Source: a virus. Taken from it: 20,833 nucleotides of DNA. This document shows positions 1,770 to 16,355 of the stretch, one piece after another; within the stretch, counting starts at the first letter, position 1, and the number at the start of each line of letters is the position of its first letter. The DNA is taken from positions 1-20,833 of the IMG/VR virus record IMGVR_UViG_3300003885_000147. One strand, written 5' to 3'. A program made the translations under genes and the position numbers. The notes below the pieces were generated by a model, which saw only the letters and a program-made list of their open reading frames with translations, ran no database searches and was not told the origin of the DNA.

Positions 1770-2086
1770 CTTGTCCTCACGTCTCCCCCTACAGGGATCT
1801 CCCAGTGTGCGTCTGTTCCTCCTGGTGTGGAGAGGTCGACGATCAGTGTATATCCGCCACCGTCGACAATAACAGCGGCCTTATCTATCTGTTTACGGTA
1901 TAGGCCAGCTGAGACGAAATCGATTGATTGTGGCCAGACGATCCCGCCGACTGGACTACCGGAGCTGTCGTTGAGAGTTGCTGTAATAGTGGCATTGTCG
2001 ATAGTGATACCAGTGATCTTGTCGGTCACGCCTGCGACCTCGATCAGCATATCGTTGTCCTTGTACCAGATCTGGATATCACTCAT
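1766..2086 (-). CDS. Small beta-rich protein of unknown function
   Basis: The 106-aa product is rich in alternating hydrophobic and polar residues (DMLIEVAGVTDKITG, then TITATLNDSSG), as expected for a small immunoglobulin-like or other beta-sandwich domain. It has no signal peptide and no membrane segment. The ATG at 2086 lies inside the end of the 811-aa repeat gene, with an eight-base overlap, so the two are probably co-translated. The position between a large repeat protein and the lysis genes suggests a small virion or fibre-associated protein, but I do not recognise a specific family. Confidence 0.6.
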   Translation of the reverse strand: MSDIQIWYKDNDMLIEVAGVTDKITGITIDNATITATLNDSSGSPVGGIVWPQSIDFVSAGLYRKQIDKAAVIVDGGGYTLIVDLSTPGGTDAHWEIPVGGDVRTS

Positions 2087-4514
2087 TTACTGGCCTCACT
2101 TTCAGATTAGCATCGATTGTTGTCGGGACTGTTAGTGTCGCATCGATTGTTGTCGGGACTGTTAGTGTCGCATCGACTACAGATAACAAATTAAATCTAG
2201 CAACTATGACCTTCCGAGCTATTGATGCCGTAATATTATCCACTATAGAGGTTAACTGCACCCCTGTCAGTGAAACAGTGATCGCTCCTGATGGAGATAT
2301 ATTTCCTATTTCTGTTGTTGATAAAACCCCAGAGAGTTCTCTCGAGTTTATAAAAGAAACAGATCCGGCTTCCCCTCCGGCCTGTACTCCAGACAATAAA
2401 ACTGATTTCCCATTGCCAACTGATCCGACTGCGGAACTAGATTGCAATCCAGTTAGGCCAACCACCCCGGATTCTGTGAACCCTACACTGCCTACCGCGG
2501 GGGCACTTTCTACACCAGTCAGTGCGACAGTGACCGGCCCGGTAACATTTCCAACTATATTTCCAACTGCGGTTGTTGATGGAACACCAGACAGCACTCG
2601 GCTATTGACCGGACTGGCTAACCCGACAGCACTGCTCGATTGAATACCTGTTAACGGTTGTGTACTGACAGCAAGCACACTATCGACAGCACTGTTAGCT
2701 TGCACCCCCGTCAATGCGACGGTGCCTGACTCAGTAACTCCTAAATTACCAACAGCACTTGTAGTCTGTGCGCCTGATAGTGATTGGTCATTCTTACCAC
2801 TGACACTATCGACAGCACTTGTAGCCTGGACCCCTGTCAGCCCAACATTACCTGACTCGGTAAAGCCTACTGATCCCACTGCGGAGGGGCTGGACACACC
2901 CGTCAGTGGTAATGTGATATTGCTCCCTGCGGACACATTACCTACTGCGGGAGTGCTGCTTACTCCTGTCAGGGGAACTGTGCCTGACTCAATGATCCCT
3001 ACCGTGCCAACAGAGCCAGCAGCTTGTATACCTGTCAGCGCAACGGTGCCGGACTTGGCGATCCCTACCGTACCAACTGCGGGGATGCTTTCTACCCCTG
3101 TCAGCCCAACATTGCCTGACTCTGTGAACCCAACACTGCCCACTGCGGGAGTGCTTACTGCTCCTGTCAATGCAACGGTGCCTGACTTGGCAATTCCTAA
3201 ACTATCTATTGCGGAAGTGCTCGCCACTCCCGTTATTGCAACAGTGACAGCAGCACCAGCAGACACACTTCCAACTGCGGTCGTGCTTACTGCTCCTACC
3301 AGTGGTCGTGTACTGGCGGGTGGCACACTGCCTACTGATGAAGTGCTGGCTACTCCTGTCAACGGCTGAGAGTTAACAGCAGATACGCTTCCAACTGATG
3401 AAGGGCTTGCCAATCCTGTCAGCCCAACATTACCTGATTCAGTAAAGCCGACTGATCCTACCGATGAAGTGCTGGCTACTCCTGTCAGTGCAACTGTGAC
3501 AGGTACACTAATTCCTACGTTGCCTACTGATGGAGTGCTGGCTACTCCTACCAAGGGTTGTGAGTTGATGGACGTGGTATTGCCCGCTGCGGGAGTGCTG
3601 CTTACTCCTGTCAGGGGAACTGTGACAGGAATGCTTGCGACCACACTTCCAACAGCGGGAGTGTTAGCTACACCTACCAATGGCTGTGAAGTGGAGGAAG
3701 AGGCACTGCCTACTGCGGGAGTACTGGCTACTCCTGTCAATGGAACCGTGACGGGGATACTCGCAGTCACGCTTCCTACTGCGGGTGTGCTTGGTGTACC
3801 TGTTAAGCCAAGGCTAAGCCCAATGGCAAGAGCACCCGCAGCCAAAGTTCCTATGACGCCAGTCAATGCAACAGTGACACCACCACCAGCAACAGCAGGG
3901 GCAAGGGCAAGCAGTTGTCCTACATTTTGACCAGCAAGCGCAGCCGTAGCAACGCGTGTTCCGGTAGCAGCAGCAGTCGCCCACGCCTCGTCCGCTGTCT
4001 CTTCTGTTGATGGGCCAAGAGCACCAGCACCTTGCAAGTCACTCCGCTCAGTCATTCCCGTTGCAGGAGTGATAGTAGTGGCAGCTTCAGTAGCGAACGC
4101 ACCGACAAGCATGGTGTTGGCTACTGTCGGAATAATACTTGGTGCCGTTATCGAGACAGATGAAACGTTGGTCTGTTGACCTTTGACATTGACCGGGGTG
4201 GTCGTGTCAACACCAGAGTAAGAGTGAATGGCTCCGGTTAAGTCAGCGGTTGCGGACGTAAAGACATAGTTGGCAGGTTCCGCAGCTCCCGCAACTTTAG
4301 TCCACATCCAAGAGTGGATTTGTTGACCACCCCAGCCAATATTTTGTTGCGCTACCCATCCTGCGGGGGCTACTACAGCAGGCGTACCATCGGTAATATC
4401 CGAAATGATAGCCACCATGACATCGTCTAAAACGGTGCCAGCGGGTTTCGCTATCGTTATAGATACGCTCTCTTCTGCCGTCGCTGTAGCAACAGCACGG
4501 AATAAAATAGCCAT
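2079..4514 (-). CDS. Large repeat-built putative virion surface or fibre protein
   Basis: This 811-aa protein has three parts. Residues 1-210 form a globular beta-rich domain (MAILFRAVATATAEESV, TGAIHSYSGVD) of the kind seen in secreted and phage surface proteins. Residues 213-770 hold about 26 tandem units of 20-22 aa with the core LTGVxSTPAVGSV followed by a variable strand such as GFTESGNVG or ASIPVTVP. Residues 776-811 end with two identical ten-residue units (DATLTVPTTI) and a short tail. I saw no cysteine and little charge in the repeats, which suggests a stacked beta fibre or solenoid. The gene sits among host-contact genes, so adhesion or capsid/tail decoration is the best inference. 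A start-stop ATGTAA lies just before the ATG. The repeats also leave the antisense frames open, but those are shadows. Confidence 0.75.
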   Translation of the reverse strand: MAILFRAVATATAEESVSITIAKPAGTVLDDVMVAIISDITDGTPAVVAPAGWVAQQNIGWGGQQIHSWMWTKVAGAAEPANYVFTSATADLTGAIHSYSGVDTTTPVNVKGQQTNVSSVSITAPSIIPTVANTMLVGAFATEAATTITPATGMTERSDLQGAGALGPSTEETADEAWATAAATGTRVATAALAGQNVGQLLALAPAVAGGGVTVALTGVIGTLAAGALAIGLSLGLTGTPSTPAVGSVTASIPVTVPLTGVASTPAVGSASSSTSQPLVGVANTPAVGSVVASIPVTVPLTGVSSTPAAGNTTSINSQPLVGVASTPSVGNVGISVPVTVALTGVASTSSVGSVGFTESGNVGLTGLASPSSVGSVSAVNSQPLTGVASTSSVGSVPPASTRPLVGAVSTTAVGSVSAGAAVTVAITGVASTSAIDSLGIAKSGTVALTGAVSTPAVGSVGFTESGNVGLTGVESIPAVGTVGIAKSGTVALTGIQAAGSVGTVGIIESGTVPLTGVSSTPAVGNVSAGSNITLPLTGVSSPSAVGSVGFTESGNVGLTGVQATSAVDSVSGKNDQSLSGAQTTSAVGNLGVTESGTVALTGVQANSAVDSVLAVSTQPLTGIQSSSAVGLASPVNSRVLSGVPSTTAVGNIVGNVTGPVTVALTGVESAPAVGSVGFTESGVVGLTGLQSSSAVGSVGNGKSVLLSGVQAGGEAGSVSFINSRELSGVLSTTEIGNISPSGAITVSLTGVQLTSIVDNITASIARKVIVARFNLLSVVDATLTVPTTIDATLTVPTTIDANLKVRPVNE
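2111..2170. repeat. Perfect 30-bp tandem duplication
   Basis: Bases 2111-2140 and 2141-2170 are identical, and the next copy begins at 2171 but soon diverges. The unit encodes ten residues (DATLTVPTTI), so the duplication keeps the reading frame at the C-terminus of the 811-aa repeat protein. Complete identity at third positions points to a recent slippage or recombination event. Confidence 0.95.
2211..3878. repeat. Degenerate tandem repeat array, about 26 units of 60-66 bp
   Basis: This stretch encodes the LTGV-AVGSV units of the 811-aa protein. Units of 20 and 22 residues are mixed. The 22-residue form carries linkers such as ESGNVG, KSGTVA or PVTVP, and the 20-residue form ends in N/S-x-Q/R-P. 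One unit is 24 residues long (VGNVTGPVTVA). The repeats are diverged in DNA but conserved at the Leu, Gly, Val and Gly core positions, which indicates selection on protein structure. Similar linkers recur at non-adjacent places, as expected if blocks of units have been duplicated together. Confidence 0.85.
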
Positions 4515-6317: not shown

Positions 6318-7190
6318 CTAGAATTGTTGACCGCATGCATTGTTTCTCGCCACCGTTAAATTCCCAACATCGGTAGCGTTGGCGTCGGTTGCGAATGGGA
6401 ACTTTTCGATAATATCAAGAGGTCCATTCCCCCCACTTACATAACCATTATTTGATGACGATTGCCCTGCTGTATCTGCTCTTAATGATGTCAAATTCCC
6501 TACGTCAGTGGCGTTGGCATCGGTTGCGAAGGGGAACTTGTCGATTACGTCAGAGGGTCCGGTCTGCCCGCCAGATGTATATCCTGATATTAAAGACGAT
6601 TGGCCTGAGACAGAATATCGACCTACTGTCAAATTCCCTACGTCAGTGGCGTTGGCATCGGTTGCGAAGGGGAACTTGTCGATGATGTCAGTACCTGTGT
6701 TCCCAATTCCACCGCTGGTATATCCACTTATGTCTGATGATTGACCAGCACACAGATGTCTTAAATCTGTCAAGTTTCCTACATCGGTAGCATTGGCGTC
6801 GGTTGCAAATGGGAATTTATCGATGATGTCCTGCTTTGTAGTACCGACGAGACCCCCGCTGGTATAACCGTTGTCTAGTGACGATTGTCCTGTCACATTA
6901 GCTCTGGGTACTGTCAAATTCCCTACGTCAGTGGCGTTGGCATCGGTTGCGAAGGGGAACTTGTCGATTACGTCAGAATTTGCTCCGTTCCACCCTCCTG
7001 ATGAATAACCGTAACTTTTTGAAGACTGTCCACCTGGTGTGTTTCTCGCCACCGTTAGATTCCCAACGTCAGTAGCATTGGTATCAGAAGAAAATGGGAA
7101 TTTATCGATTACGTCAGTATATGTCCCACCACCACTGGTATATCCTCTGACCAGTCCTCCGCTGCGAAACATAACTGGTCTGATTAGCAT
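6318..7190 (-). CDS. Six-unit beta-propeller-like repeat protein, putative receptor-binding or fibre-tip protein
   Basis: The 290-aa protein is almost entirely six tandem units of 44-48 residues. Each unit runs GYTSGG, a variable loop, DVIDKFPF, ATDANATDVGNLT, an arginine-centred variable loop and GQSS. Short Gly-Gly strands and a buried aromatic motif repeated this way resemble Kelch-type beta-propeller blades. The first GYTSGG strand at the N-terminus would close the ring with the last, shortened unit (ending CGQQF). The conserved parts would be the scaffold. The loops between them, the only variable parts, would lie on one face, as in a ligand-binding propeller. The start overlaps the fibre gene stop (TAATG), so the two are coupled. 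The propeller fold and receptor role are inferences. Confidence 0.7.
   Translation of the reverse strand: MLIRPVMFRSGGLVRGYTSGGGTYTDVIDKFPFSSDTNATDVGNLTVARNTPGGQSSKSYGYSSGGWNGANSDVIDKFPFATDANATDVGNLTVPRANVTGQSSLDNGYTSGGLVGTTKQDIIDKFPFATDANATDVGNLTDLRHLCAGQSSDISGYTSGGIGNTGTDIIDKFPFATDANATDVGNLTVGRYSVSGQSSLISGYTSGGQTGPSDVIDKFPFATDANATDVGNLTSLRADTAGQSSSNNGYVSGGNGPLDIIEKFPFATDANATDVGNLTVARNNACGQQF
6354..7140. repeat. Six tandem DNA repeats of about 140 bp with near-identical cores
   Basis: Each unit contains a conserved core that codes for DKFPFATDANATDVGNLT, separated by variable loop-coding DNA. The cores at 6489-6554 and 6912-6977 are identical over 66 bases, and 6624-6683 is identical to 6909-6968 over 60 bases. 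The cores near 6355, 6766 and 7051 differ at many third positions. This mosaic of identical and diverged copies suggests repeated recombination or gene conversion between units. It is not a CRISPR array: the whole stretch is one open frame and the spacers encode loops. Confidence 0.9.
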
Positions 7191-12153: not shown

Positions 12154-12470
12154 ACCGTCTCGGTGTACTGCATTACGACCCGGTCGCCGAAGTTGACGTC
12201 ATCAGGGTCGGCGCCGAGTCCGTCAAGATCGACTACTGACATAACTCCCACGGGAAGTCCGTTTATTCTCTGGTATTGAGACAGCACGTCTGACGTTTCT
12301 ATAAGCTTCACTCCGCTGACCAGGACGATGCCGTCCCGACCGACGTCCATATGCCATGACCTGTCCCTTGAGTTCCACCGGAATGTCATGTCGTATATGA
12401 CGCCGTCGAGTTCAGTTTGCTGATCGAACGGATCGATGGTGTCGCTTACTGGGATGATGAAGACGTTCAT
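12150..12470 (-). CDS. Baseplate plug protein (Pam3 gp18-like)
   Basis: The 106-aa product shows the pattern of the small plug family: a beta start (VFIIPVSDTIDPFDQQTELDG), YDMTFRWNSRDRSWHMDV, then GLPVGVMSVVDLDG and FGDRVVMQYTE. FRWNxRxxxWxMDI followed by GxxLVxGVKL is the mark of plug proteins in minimal contractile baseplates such as cyanophage Pam3. There the plug fills the space between the hub and the Dit-like ring. Both ends overlap neighbours by ATGA, matching a coupled baseplate operon. Length is normal for the family. Confidence 0.78.
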   Translation of the reverse strand: MNVFIIPVSDTIDPFDQQTELDGVIYDMTFRWNSRDRSWHMDVGRDGIVLVSGVKLIETSDVLSQYQRINGLPVGVMSVVDLDGLGADPDDVNFGDRVVMQYTETV

Positions 12471-12979
12471 ACCGGAATCTTCGTCACGATACCGTTGCTC
12501 CTGACTTTGAGGGCTGTGTGTTTAACGCCGTCCGCGATCCTGTCACGGTTCGTCGCAGCAGTATCTCCCACCACAAGGATCTCCTTCAATCTCGCAGTGA
12601 ACCTGATCGAGCGTCCGTCCAGAGCTGTTCTCGGGACAGATAGCTCCTCGAACATCATCCTGTCATAGACGGCAATCTTGGTAACGACACGGAACGTCTC
12701 CCTGCCCTTTTGCAAGGCAACGAGGGATTTGAATGCGTCAGCCGAAGTTCCTGGTCCCCGGAAGCTTACAAGCGACTGAGTAGCATCAGAGATCCTTCCC
12801 TCGATCTGCAGCGTAGTAGGCTGCAGTACGACGTGGTCTGTGAACACAGTCCCATCCTCTACCGGATTCTCGGTCAACTGTGCAGGGAACCTGTGGTCCT
12901 CGCTGAGCGACGCGTCAAGCTCGACTGTCCCGATCTTGACCTTCGTTATGGTCTGGAATCCAAGTATCGATACAGCCAC
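12467..12979 (-). CDS. Dit-like baseplate protein
   Basis: The 170-aa product opens at a GTG (12979) with GGAGG eight bases upstream and immediately follows the tape measure stop. The segments ITKVKIGTVELDASLSEDH, LTENPVEDGTVFTDHVVLQP and LQIEGRISDA fit the N-terminal Dit-like domain of small contractile-tail phages, which connects the tail tube to the hub. The centre contains a helical stretch (ADAFKSLVALQKGRETFRVV), and the C-terminal part (RSIRFTARLKEILVV) completes the barrel. The position between tape measure and plug is that of known homologues. Confidence 0.78.
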   Translation of the reverse strand: MAVSILGFQTITKVKIGTVELDASLSEDHRFPAQLTENPVEDGTVFTDHVVLQPTTLQIEGRISDATQSLVSFRGPGTSADAFKSLVALQKGRETFRVVTKIAVYDRMMFEELSVPRTALDGRSIRFTARLKEILVVGDTAATNRDRIADGVKHTALKVRSNGIVTKIPV

Positions 12980-14044
12980 TTATCTGTCCTCCGTCTGGAC
13001 CATCTCTCGCGATGCGTCTCTGACTATACCTGATACCACACGCTTGACCTCGCCGGCTATCTTGTCGTCTCCGCTCGCTGTCACGTTTATGTTGAACACG
13101 GCGCTGAGGATGTTTCTGCCGAGTTTTCCAGCTTCGACGCTCGTCTTGATTACGTTTTCAGGGAGACCAATGGCTCTACCACCAGCAACAGCGGGATCCT
13201 CGATAAACGATTTAAACATGCCGCTCTTTTTCGCCTTGTCGCTCGTGACGACGATCTTGTCGAGCAGGATGTTAAGTTTGTTTAATGCAGGAACGAGCAG
13301 TTTGGTTAACGACTCAGATAGGTTGTCCATCGTCTTCTTAAAGCTGGCAGCTGCCCTATCTGCCTCGAACACGGCATCAGGGATCGCTTTGAGGTTCCTG
13401 CTGATGACGCCGCTTGATCGTCCGGTGTTTCTAAGGAACGCGTTCAGCCGCTGCGCTCTGCCGATGCCGCTGGTGAACTCTCCGCCTGGTGCGATGGCGT
13501 TGAGTTGGTCCTGCAGGTTCTGAATCCTTGTCTTGGTAAATCCTGGAACGTCTGCCAGGAATCCGAAGTTACCGGATTCGATTCCCTGTGTGATGCTGGA
13601 GAATAGGTCTTTTACGTTCTTGCCGGTCAGCAGGGATAGTTTCGCGGCAAGCTCGAAAGTCCTTTTGAAGGATTCCATCTTTCCTTCACCACGACCGAAT
13701 ATCTGGAAAAATTCTGTGCCAGCGGAGAAGAAGTCCTTGCCTGTTATTTTGGTGCCAAACCCACGTCTGATCTGATCAAGACTTCTCTGAACAGAGAGCA
13801 GCTGTTGTTCGAGTTGTGCTGTGCTCAGTCCGGTGAACCGCTCCATGTTGAACCGGGCTCGCTCGATTGAGATGCCGAGCTTCCCCATCGCGGTGACGCC
13901 GGCGACCCCGAGCGATATTCCGAACAACTTAGCGAGGCGCCTGGTTCCGCTCCTCATTTTCCGCATCGTGCGCTCGAACTGATCGACGCCCTTCTTGTCG
14001 GTCTCGAACTTGAACCGGGTTACGACTTCGCGCAGGACTGGCAT
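12980..14044 (-). CDS. Short tail tape measure protein
   Basis: At 354 aa this is short for a tape measure. The sequence is basic and mostly helical, with an N-terminal KKGVDQFERTMRKMRSG segment like other tape measures, a hydrophobic stretch at about residues 38-58 (LAKLFGISLGVAGVTAMG) and long helical repeats to the end. It fills the position right after the tail chaperone: the frameshifted chaperone stop TAA is directly followed by this ATG. With the common rule of about 0.15 nm of tail per residue, the tail would be roughly 50 nm. GAGG lies eight bases upstream of the ATG. No lytic transglycosylase or peptidase domain is seen. Confidence 0.85.
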   Translation of the reverse strand: MPVLREVVTRFKFETDKKGVDQFERTMRKMRSGTRRLAKLFGISLGVAGVTAMGKLGISIERARFNMERFTGLSTAQLEQQLLSVQRSLDQIRRGFGTKITGKDFFSAGTEFFQIFGRGEGKMESFKRTFELAAKLSLLTGKNVKDLFSSITQGIESGNFGFLADVPGFTKTRIQNLQDQLNAIAPGGEFTSGIGRAQRLNAFLRNTGRSSGVISRNLKAIPDAVFEADRAAASFKKTMDNLSESLTKLLVPALNKLNILLDKIVVTSDKAKKSGMFKSFIEDPAVAGGRAIGLPENVIKTSVEAGKLGRNILSAVFNINVTASGDDKIAGEVKRVVSGIVRDASREMVQTEDR

Positions 14045-14233
14045 TTAGTGATCCTCAGCTTCTCGTGATATGTCGTCGAGGGTGAGGTTGAAGTCTAGCA
14101 TGTCCCAGATTGTGTATACCGTCTGGGCTTCGTGTAGGGTGCAGAGGTTGGATACTATTGGCCTTCTCAGGAAGGGGTGGATTCCTCCTCCTTCCCATCG
14201 CCCTCTGAGAACATATCCATAATCCCCTGTAAT
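14045..14233 (-). CDS. Frameshift extension of the tail assembly chaperone (-1 frame)
   Basis: After a -1 shift on the A9 tract the reading frame continues for about 62 codons (ITGDYGYVLRGRW onward), with no stop until the TAA at 14047-14045. The tape measure ATG follows that TAA immediately. The segment HPFLRRPIVSNLCTLHEAQT and the end DMLDFNLTLDDISREAEDH resemble the second half of phage tail chaperones, which often end in a helix with alternating Asp, Arg and Glu. The frame has no start codon or ribosome binding site of its own, so it can only be made as a fusion of about 192 aa with the upstream 130 codons. This mirrors lambda G/GT. Confidence 0.8.
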   Translation of the reverse strand: MTGDYGYVLRGRWEGGGIHPFLRRPIVSNLCTLHEAQTVYTIWDMLDFNLTLDDISREAEDH

Positions 14234-14622
14234 TTTTTTTTAACCATGTCTGCGTACCCGTTGTGCTCAATGATGGCAGACACCAGTTCGTACAGATCGT
14301 CGAAGTTTGCCGAGAAGTGAGACTCGTACCAGTCTGAGAAACCGCTACTCACATCGGGCCTGATCATGCTCTCCTGAATTAATTGTTTGACGAAAGCCGG
14401 GGTCCCGCGCTCGTCGATCTGTCCCATCAACCCCTGGACCATCTTCGCAGGGTTGTACTCTGCATCGAGGATCTGATCACTGTCTTTGATGCTGTCTATC
14501 CCGTCCGCAGCACCCATGATGATCTTGGTGATGTGGATCCCGACCTCCATCCCTCTCGTTGCCGGAAGCTGCTGGATGACGAACTCTGTGTCTCCGATTT
14601 GTACTGTCTTCTGTTCGAGCAT
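14167..14622 (-). CDS. Tail assembly chaperone, unshifted product
   Basis: The 151-aa product (MLEQKTVQIGDTEFVIQQLP at the start) lies between tube and tape measure, where phages encode the chaperone that coats the tape measure and recruits tube subunits. The zero frame passes the tract coding KKK (14241-14233) and stops after a short acidic end (MDMFSEGDGKEEESTPS). Ribosomes that slip back one base make the longer product instead. Residues such as PATRGMEVGIHITKI and the acidic tail fit tail chaperones in related contractile phages. No Shine-Dalgarno sequence is clear; it starts eight bases after the tube stop. Confidence 0.8.
   Translation of the reverse strand: MLEQKTVQIGDTEFVIQQLPATRGMEVGIHITKIIMGAADGIDSIKDSDQILDAEYNPAKMVQGLMGQIDERGTPAFVKQLIQESMIRPDVSSGFSDWYESHFSANFDDLYELVSAIIEHNGYADMVKKKLQGIMDMFSEGDGKEEESTPS
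14233..14241 (-). promoter_or_regulatory. Programmed -1 ribosomal frameshift site (A9 slippery tract)
   Basis: The mRNA reads GTT AAA AAA AAA TTA. Nine adenines contain the canonical slippery form A AAA AAA, which lets tRNA-Lys re-pair one base back. A 6-bp stem (GGAAGG with CCTTCC, 14-base loop) lies about 35 bases further on, but no structure at the usual short spacing is obvious. The evidence is the tract, the open -1 frame, and its placement between tail tube and tape measure. Confidence 0.8.
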
Positions 14623-14629
14623 TTCGGTT

Positions 14630-15061
14630 TTAAGCTGCGCCTCCGACTATCATCTGCAGGTTGCTGGTACGAATGACCCACTCTCTGGTCTCGATTCCGG
14701 CCCGGTATGATGTCTGTGGCATCTTCTGGATCCATGAATTCGGAGCGACATGCAGGTCGTTGCCGCGGTTATCCTTCACCAGGACCGGGAAAATCCCATC
14801 TCCGCTTAGCTGGTCGACCCTGGCAAGGCCGGACAGGATAAGGTTTGCCGGACTGGTTTGCAGCAATGTAATGGTGATGCTGCCGCGCTTGTCGTTCGTC
14901 ATCCTGCGTGCCACGTCCCCTTCTGCGCCGACCTCGTCCTCGACCTGGTTCGATTCCCGGTCTACCTGCACGAATGTGTCCTGCGCGTATCCGGTAATGA
15001 TGGCTCCGGCAACGGTGATGATGATGTCCTTCGGGTCGTATGTGTCGATTCTGTCTGCCAT
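14630..15061 (-). CDS. Tail tube protein (DUF3277-like)
   Basis: The 143-aa product has the tube-family pattern: YDPKDIIITVAGAIITGYA, then VQVDRESNQVEDEVGAEGDV, RRMTNDKRGSITITLLQTS, and a C-terminal REWVIRTSNLQMIVGG. DxxxVxxxxGAxGExxRxxxxDxxxxxTxTLxQTS is the signature of the inner tube in DUF3383/DUF3277-type contractile tails. AAGGGG lies seven bases before the ATG. It directly follows the sheath gene, the standard order. The length is normal. Confidence 0.9.
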   Translation of the reverse strand: MADRIDTYDPKDIIITVAGAIITGYAQDTFVQVDRESNQVEDEVGAEGDVARRMTNDKRGSITITLLQTSPANLILSGLARVDQLSGDGIFPVLVKDNRGNDLHVAPNSWIQKMPQTSYRAGIETREWVIRTSNLQMIVGGAA

Positions 15062-15071
15062 GTTTTACCCC

Positions 15072-16355
15072 TTAGACTTGAGCGTTGACGGTGATGGCGA
15101 GCGAGTGGATGGCTCCTGCCAACTGCGCGGATACGACGATGCCAGGAAAGTATCGGCTCGTCCTGTCAGCAGTCAGTTGATCAGCAACCTTCGGAATCGT
15201 GATCCGGTAAAAGTCGCCAGAGTTGTCGAGCAGCGGTCCCAGTAAGTCGTTCCTGATCCCCTGATCCATAACGGTCACGATCTCGCCATGGATGATGCCG
15301 GCGCCCGCGTCCGTGTATGGGATCTTGGGTTCCTTTAGCAGCCTGGCCGCTATCGTCTCGCCCATGGTGGCCTCGAGCCAGTCGATGCCGCGCTGTATAT
15401 CGATGAATCGTCCGAATGCCATGACGGCCTCATGGGTATGCCCTGTCCCTGCCAGCGGTGTGTACAGGTTTGCGTTCTTGCCGAGTGCGGTTGCTTCTTC
15501 GCTTGGTAAGATATCTGTCTTGTTGGCTGCAGCGATACCGGTGAGCTGTTTGAATTTCCACGTCTCGCTTCCAGGGTCCGATGGCAGCATTAATCCTGCC
15601 CATGCACACTCCGGGAATGTGTAGTTTGAAAAATAATTAACTGTCGGAGAAGTAACATCATCCGCAGCCGTTGTGGCGCAGGTGAAGTTGTTCGCATCGA
15701 TTACAGAAGCGACGGTGTTGTTGCCGTCTATCGATACCCCGCTTGATCCTGCGAAAGTGACTGGATCTCCGACTTCGAGATTATGTAAAGCCTGGGTAAC
15801 CGTGATCACATTGGATGTGATGCTGTACACCGCACCGGTGACATCAACGCCGCTCTTGTGGTGCCACAAGTAGGCCGTGCGATTGTAGCTGGCAGCCTGC
15901 AGCACACTAGCGATGTCGGATGTCACGACTGTAAGCACATCTGCGTCCTGGCTGTTGGCAATATATATCTTGGTCTTGCCTTCGATCCAGAGTGCGATCT
16001 CCTGAATGTCGGCCGATACCCGTTTCGGGGTCAGCAGGCAATACCAATCTGAATCTTCTGCTTCAATCGCATTGAGGGCAGCAGTGATATTCGCGTCTCC
16101 AGTCTCCTGTCGACCGATCTTGATAGATGTTGGTGCCCTGGTCTGCGCGAACACAGCGGCCGCAGCCTTGTATGTTTTCGTGGTGGTAGCAAAGTCAGCA
16201 GATACTGCGATCAAATCTGCATATGATTTTGTCCTCGGGGTGAAGACGGTGTTCTCGACGAGATCAAAGATCAAGGGAACGCCGAATCCTAACCTGGTGA
16301 TCTTCGTGTCTGCTACGTTGACTGTTACGTTTACGACATCGGTTGTTTCGGTCAT
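15072..16355 (-). CDS. Tail sheath protein (DUF3383-like)
   Basis: The 427-aa protein shows the sheath pattern: RLGFGVPLIF near the N-terminus, then RTKSYADLIAVSADF, AQTRAPTSIKIGR and WYCLLTPKRV, and in the C-terminal half FIDIQRGIDWLEATMGETIA, IPYTDAGAGII and SRYFPGIVVSAQLAGAIHS. The sheath contracts around the tube to drive it into the host. Residues about 171-243 (VTGAVYSITSNVITVTQALH, NLEVGDPVTFAGSSG, NNFTC) look like an inserted small beta domain, probably exposed on the outside of the sheath. The start is seven bases after the stop of the terminator gene. Confidence 0.9.
   Translation of the reverse strand: MTETTDVVNVTVNVADTKITRLGFGVPLIFDLVENTVFTPRTKSYADLIAVSADFATTTKTYKAAAAVFAQTRAPTSIKIGRQETGDANITAALNAIEAEDSDWYCLLTPKRVSADIQEIALWIEGKTKIYIANSQDADVLTVVTSDIASVLQAASYNRTAYLWHHKSGVDVTGAVYSITSNVITVTQALHNLEVGDPVTFAGSSGVSIDGNNTVASVIDANNFTCATTAADDVTSPTVNYFSNYTFPECAWAGLMLPSDPGSETWKFKQLTGIAAANKTDILPSEEATALGKNANLYTPLAGTGHTHEAVMAFGRFIDIQRGIDWLEATMGETIAARLLKEPKIPYTDAGAGIIHGEIVTVMDQGIRNDLLGPLLDNSGDFYRITIPKVADQLTADRTSRYFPGIVVSAQLAGAIHSLAITVNAQV

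Follow-up and report, generated by a model that had tools for sequence, protein, structure and literature searches.

The window, by which we mean the whole 20,833-base stretch of viral DNA analysed here, carries on its minus strand a run of tail genes in the order sheath, tube, chaperone, extension and tape-measure-like open reading frame (ORF). The tail sheath gene (15072–16355; PF11863 DUF3383, phrog_205) is followed by a gene for a tail tube-like protein (14630–15061; PF11681 KPP10_Orf10), which lies upstream of the chaperone ORF (14167–14622). Other neighbours encode a Dit-like protein, a Pam3 gp18-type plug and an E217 gp41-type hub, and genes for baseplate J, capsid and cement proteins lie further out. 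Residues 177–235 of the sheath resemble an endosialidase beta-barrel (PF12195, E=2.4e-7, just below the cut-off), which suggests that the sheath may carry an inserted surface domain. The Dit-like protein (12467–12979) is also matched by phrog_1517 (E=1e-11), whose 'endolysin' label looks like a mislabelling of that PHROG. Elsewhere in the window, an 811-aa ORF (2079–4514) contains degenerate repeats of about VALTGVxSTPAVGSVG, which at the DNA level measure 66 and 126 bases, and has no Pfam match and no significant PHROG match, while a 290-aa ORF (6318–7190) close to the tail-fibre end contains YTSGG...DVIDKFPFATDANATDVGNLTV repeats and 144-base DNA repeats.

The 151-aa product of the zero-frame ORF, which ends at a TGA at 14169–14167, is by its Pfam and PHROGs matches a tail assembly chaperone, of the G-like, N-terminal type (TAC-N): PF21822 Phage_TAC_15 is matched at E=2.2e-10 (41.6 bits, against a cut-off of 22) and phrog_1613 at E=1.6e-15. 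The gene downstream of the extension, a 354-aa ORF at 12980–14044, had been called the tape measure in an earlier, sequence-only reading of this DNA. It probably encodes a short tape measure protein; gene order agrees with that call, and the family match falls below threshold (PF09718, E=0.012). This ORF shares 39% identity with the ORF at the same position in the one close relative, L002, and matches no tape-measure PHROG. In a further virus (L007), PHROGs clearly identify the same-position ORF as a tape measure, and BLASTP found no match between that protein and the 354-aa ORF. The chaperone gene thus lies between the tube gene and a tape measure gene that is less firmly identified in the window.

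At the heart of the locus is a run of nine A residues (A9) at 14241–14233 of the minus, mRNA strand, the only homopolymer of seven or more in the window. Its zero-frame phase is GTT AAA AAA AAA TTA, such that a putative slip heptamer, A_AAA_AAA, occupies 14239–14233 as a tandem X_XXY_YYZ site in zero-frame register. The zero frame stops 22 codons past A9, counting the TGA. The −1 frame is bounded upstream by a TAA made of the T of GTT and the first two A's of A9, and the T-like extension (TAC-C; 14233–14045) runs for 62 codons after the slip, through a conserved CTLHEAQTVYTIWDMLDF motif, to a TAA at 14047–14045, which the ATG of the next gene (14044) abuts. The nine A's, the zero-frame stop and the open −1 frame that ends at the next ATG are as the sequence-only reading had described them, as is the absence of an independent start: the −1 frame contains no ATG, GTG or TTG ahead of the conserved motif. 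A slip on AAA AAA is predicted to yield a 192-aa fusion whose transframe junction peptide centres on VKKKITGDYGYVLR, and downstream of the slip site bases 14232–14167 would be read in both frames.

By chance, neither element is especially improbable. An open −1 frame of 62 codons arises in 5% of dinucleotide shuffles, which makes it modestly unlikely, and three AAA codons in a row have a probability of about 0.05 given lysine usage in the window. The arrangement is clearly non-random because it is conserved, both in the gapless alignment with L002 and in 60 viral loci that carry the extension. No stimulatory RNA structure stands out 3' of A9 (z about −0.2), a search for Rfam elements found none, and no Shine-Dalgarno (SD)-like sequence lies 5' of A9. 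The missing structure is acceptable since some tailed-phage shifts seemingly need none (PMC5009743).

Our search for close relatives returned a single virus, L002, from a separate record. Across the 578-nt locus the two align without gaps, including the doubly read part, with identities of 66% in the zero frame and 62% in the −1 extension. The L002 slip site reads GTA AAA AAA AAG; it too has nine A's, shifted by one base in phase, so that its heptamer is A_AAA_AAG. Those genes of L002 that were examined (locus GC 61%) have no other run of five or more A's or T's. Past the zero-frame stop, dN/dS against L002 is 0.41 for the −1 frame, compared with 0.95 for the zero frame and 3.0 for the +1 frame. 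Where both frames are read, the values are 0.47 for the zero frame and 0.37 for the −1 frame. All of these come from few sites and are to be read as indicative.

A profile search of genome contigs with a two-sequence extension alignment found no relative, and a five-sequence extension profile retrieved 60 viral loci in IMG/VR. Used by itself, the window extension matches phages of Pasteurella, Aggregatibacter and Haemophilus at the chaperone/tape-measure junction. PHROGs 3976, 4364 and 4625, all listed as of 'unknown function', are matched by 27, 23 and 19 of 31 extensions, respectively, at E<=0.01; the window extension matches them weakly (phrog_4364, E=0.006; phrog_3976, E=0.012). The AlphaFold model of the extension (pLDDT 78) shows four helices, and searches of solved structures and folds with this model returned nothing usable. 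The earlier suggestion that the extension is of the DUF6889 type (PF21829) was rejected: only one of 31 members matched, weakly, at E=0.095, none of 12 records did, and the window extension has no match in Pfam.

The relatives were checked for stops that would close the −1 frame, and in 59 of the 60 loci the extension lies −1 relative to the chaperone ORF upstream of it. The exception, L066, is one G short in a G run soon after its T7 tract, giving a frame relation unlike that of its close relatives, and looks like either a sequencing error or a decayed prophage. The constant frame relation bears on whether the extension might instead be an independent gene that starts by itself, the annotation chosen by depositors in PAK_P1, Boevelstad and vB_PseuGesM_254. 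Against this, the window's −1 frame has no start codon ahead of the motif, and of 57 −1 loci all but one lack an SD-backed start there, many of them having no start codon at all; we therefore regard a separate gene as very improbable. In the Pakpunavirus-like genomes L003, L004 and L005 the −1 extension is annotated as a separate 'hypothetical protein', a call that is likely a misannotation, as has also been argued elsewhere (PMC12846349).

Although the frame relation is constant, the slip sites are not. A tandem slip heptamer of the pattern X_XXY_YYZ occurs in the permitted zone of 31 of 37 distinct loci and in 10 of 151 control windows taken from farther upstream within those genes (p=6e-21, a value that overstates the evidence, the loci not being independent, while the contrast is still large). 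Loss of the slip site in relatives, which would have counted against a frameshift, was thus looked for and is not the family's pattern. Of the six distinct loci lacking a tandem heptamer, four have the published G_GTT_TTT site; in L063 and L064, a T7 run lies farther upstream. In addition to the A9 of the window and L002, sites in the family include G_GGA_AAG, G_GGA_AAC, G_GTT_TTT and an A6 A_AAA_AAG. On a tree in which several deep branches are long and unsure, the type of slip site has changed at least six times while the direction has stayed constantly −1. One such change is seen among close relatives, as L017 (CTA AAA AAG, an A_AAA_AAG site with A6) is nested in a G_GGA_AAG group with support of 100/98. 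The −1 direction and the extension have therefore outlasted repeated replacement of the slip heptamer, including this swap between G_GGA_AAG and A_AAA_AAG.

This pattern weighs on two further explanations. One is that the frame break reflects a homopolymer sequencing or assembly error within one continuous gene, since long homopolymers are error-prone and the one-base G-run difference of L066 itself resembles error or decay. We consider this hardly credible for the window, because L002, with a chaperone only 66% identical, repeats the frame relation with its A run in another codon phase, and because in distant relatives the break falls at sites that are not homopolymers, in every case towards −1. 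The other is that slippage is mainly transcriptional, with RNA polymerase dropping one A or adding two at A9 and so bringing the extension into frame. Bacterial RNA polymerase does slip at runs of nine A's or T's (PMC5009743), and there are precedents at an A11 in tssM (PMC4256274) and an A9 in Thermus dnaX (PMC3711429). Furthermore, the window and L002 have exactly nine A's despite their different codon phases. This shared length is, however, weak evidence for polymerase slippage, because Val-Lys-Lys-Lys together with a tandem heptamer already demands eight A's, so that nine call for no added selection on the length of the run. Relatives in the family use the slip sites listed above that are not long homopolymers. 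Transcriptional slippage as the main mechanism therefore seems unlikely to us. The sequence-only reading had raised it as a possibility for the A tract, and there it may still act as an addition, but it does not suit the family as a common mechanism. It is perhaps tempting to speculate that in the A9 lineage (the window and L002) polymerase slippage sets the ratio of short to long product wholly or in part, having replaced or joined ribosomal slippage, yet we would give this only a small chance.

We favour ribosomal −1 slippage as the shared mechanism because the heptamers vary while the direction and the extension persist, and because what the family shares is a site for the re-pairing of two tRNAs rather than a long homopolymer. 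On this sequence-based evidence, the locus is very probably a G/GT-type tail chaperone gene of a contractile-tailed phage, in which −1 ribosomal slippage would give rise to proteins of 151 and 192 aa, in what may be the fixed ratio that the sequence-only reading proposed. The proposal of such a chaperone in the sequence-only reading is supported by the family matches, the conservation of the −1 frame, the enrichment of slip heptamers and published work on related phages (PMC12846349). In the mechanism we propose, most ribosomes would end at the zero-frame TGA and release the 151-aa chaperone, while a minority would slip back by one base at A_AAA_AAA, with tRNA-Lys re-pairing in both the P and A sites, and go on to make the 192-aa protein with its predicted helical C-terminal domain. 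If lambda gpG/gpGT is taken as the model (PMC5009743), the short form may bind along the tape measure protein, with recruitment of the tail tube subunit falling to the extension. In E. coli, A_AAA_AAA ranks well below A_AAA_AAG as a slip site (PMC5009743), and a GeneTack study found shifts of 6–7% for two phage tail chaperone genes (PMC3711429).

The frameshifted chaperone arrangement is already known, and the window extends it to a new and divergent lineage of myophages whose slip site, A9, is unusual. What is new here is the breadth of the extension family, the repeated replacement of the slip site, and the connection with PHROGs 3976, 4364 and 4625. These three PHROGs are united by the extension, which gives them a likely role, and the link would correct annotations in which the extension is missing or listed as a separate hypothetical gene. 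Dozens of other phages can now be seen to carry the extension.

Among known systems, the same chaperone arrangement has been inferred for the Vandenendeviridae, with the same motif noted in the Andersonviridae and GTTTTT as the slip motif (PMC12846349, 2025). The TAC-N/TAC-NC genes of Pakpunavirus and of other Vandenendeviridae and Andersonviridae resemble the window in gene position, −1 direction, extension and N-terminal family, the last with a tblastn match to Boevelstad at 2e-7. The motif CTLHE(L)QTVYS is common to the window and to Pakpunavirus-like IMG/VR loci such as L057 and L060. In these groups, however, the GTTTTT slip site is invariant, whereas the window has A9, and the extensions of the Pakpunavirus-like loci are about 23–30% identical to that of the window. 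In Haemophilus phage Aaphi23, the depositors recorded ORF54-54' as a two-piece joined coding sequence between the tube and tape measure genes; this phage, S1249 and the Pasteurella phages Pmp2 and Pmp3 have an extension homologous to the window's, in the −1 frame. Their slip sites are unlike A9 (Aaphi23 has a T7 run and Pmp3 a T6), and the N domain is much diverged.

In lambda, the slip site of gpG/gpGT is G_GGA_AAG, a heptamer present in the relatives L015, L016 and L018 and absent from the window. The likeness of lambda gpG/gpGT to the window is one of system type, and we claim no sequence homology. Finally, the A9 of Thermus dnaX and the A11 of Citrobacter tssM1 are like the window in having an A run long enough for RNA polymerase slippage. 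They lie in different genes, whereas the tract of the window coincides with an in-phase tandem ribosomal heptamer and belongs to a family that also uses non-homopolymer sites.
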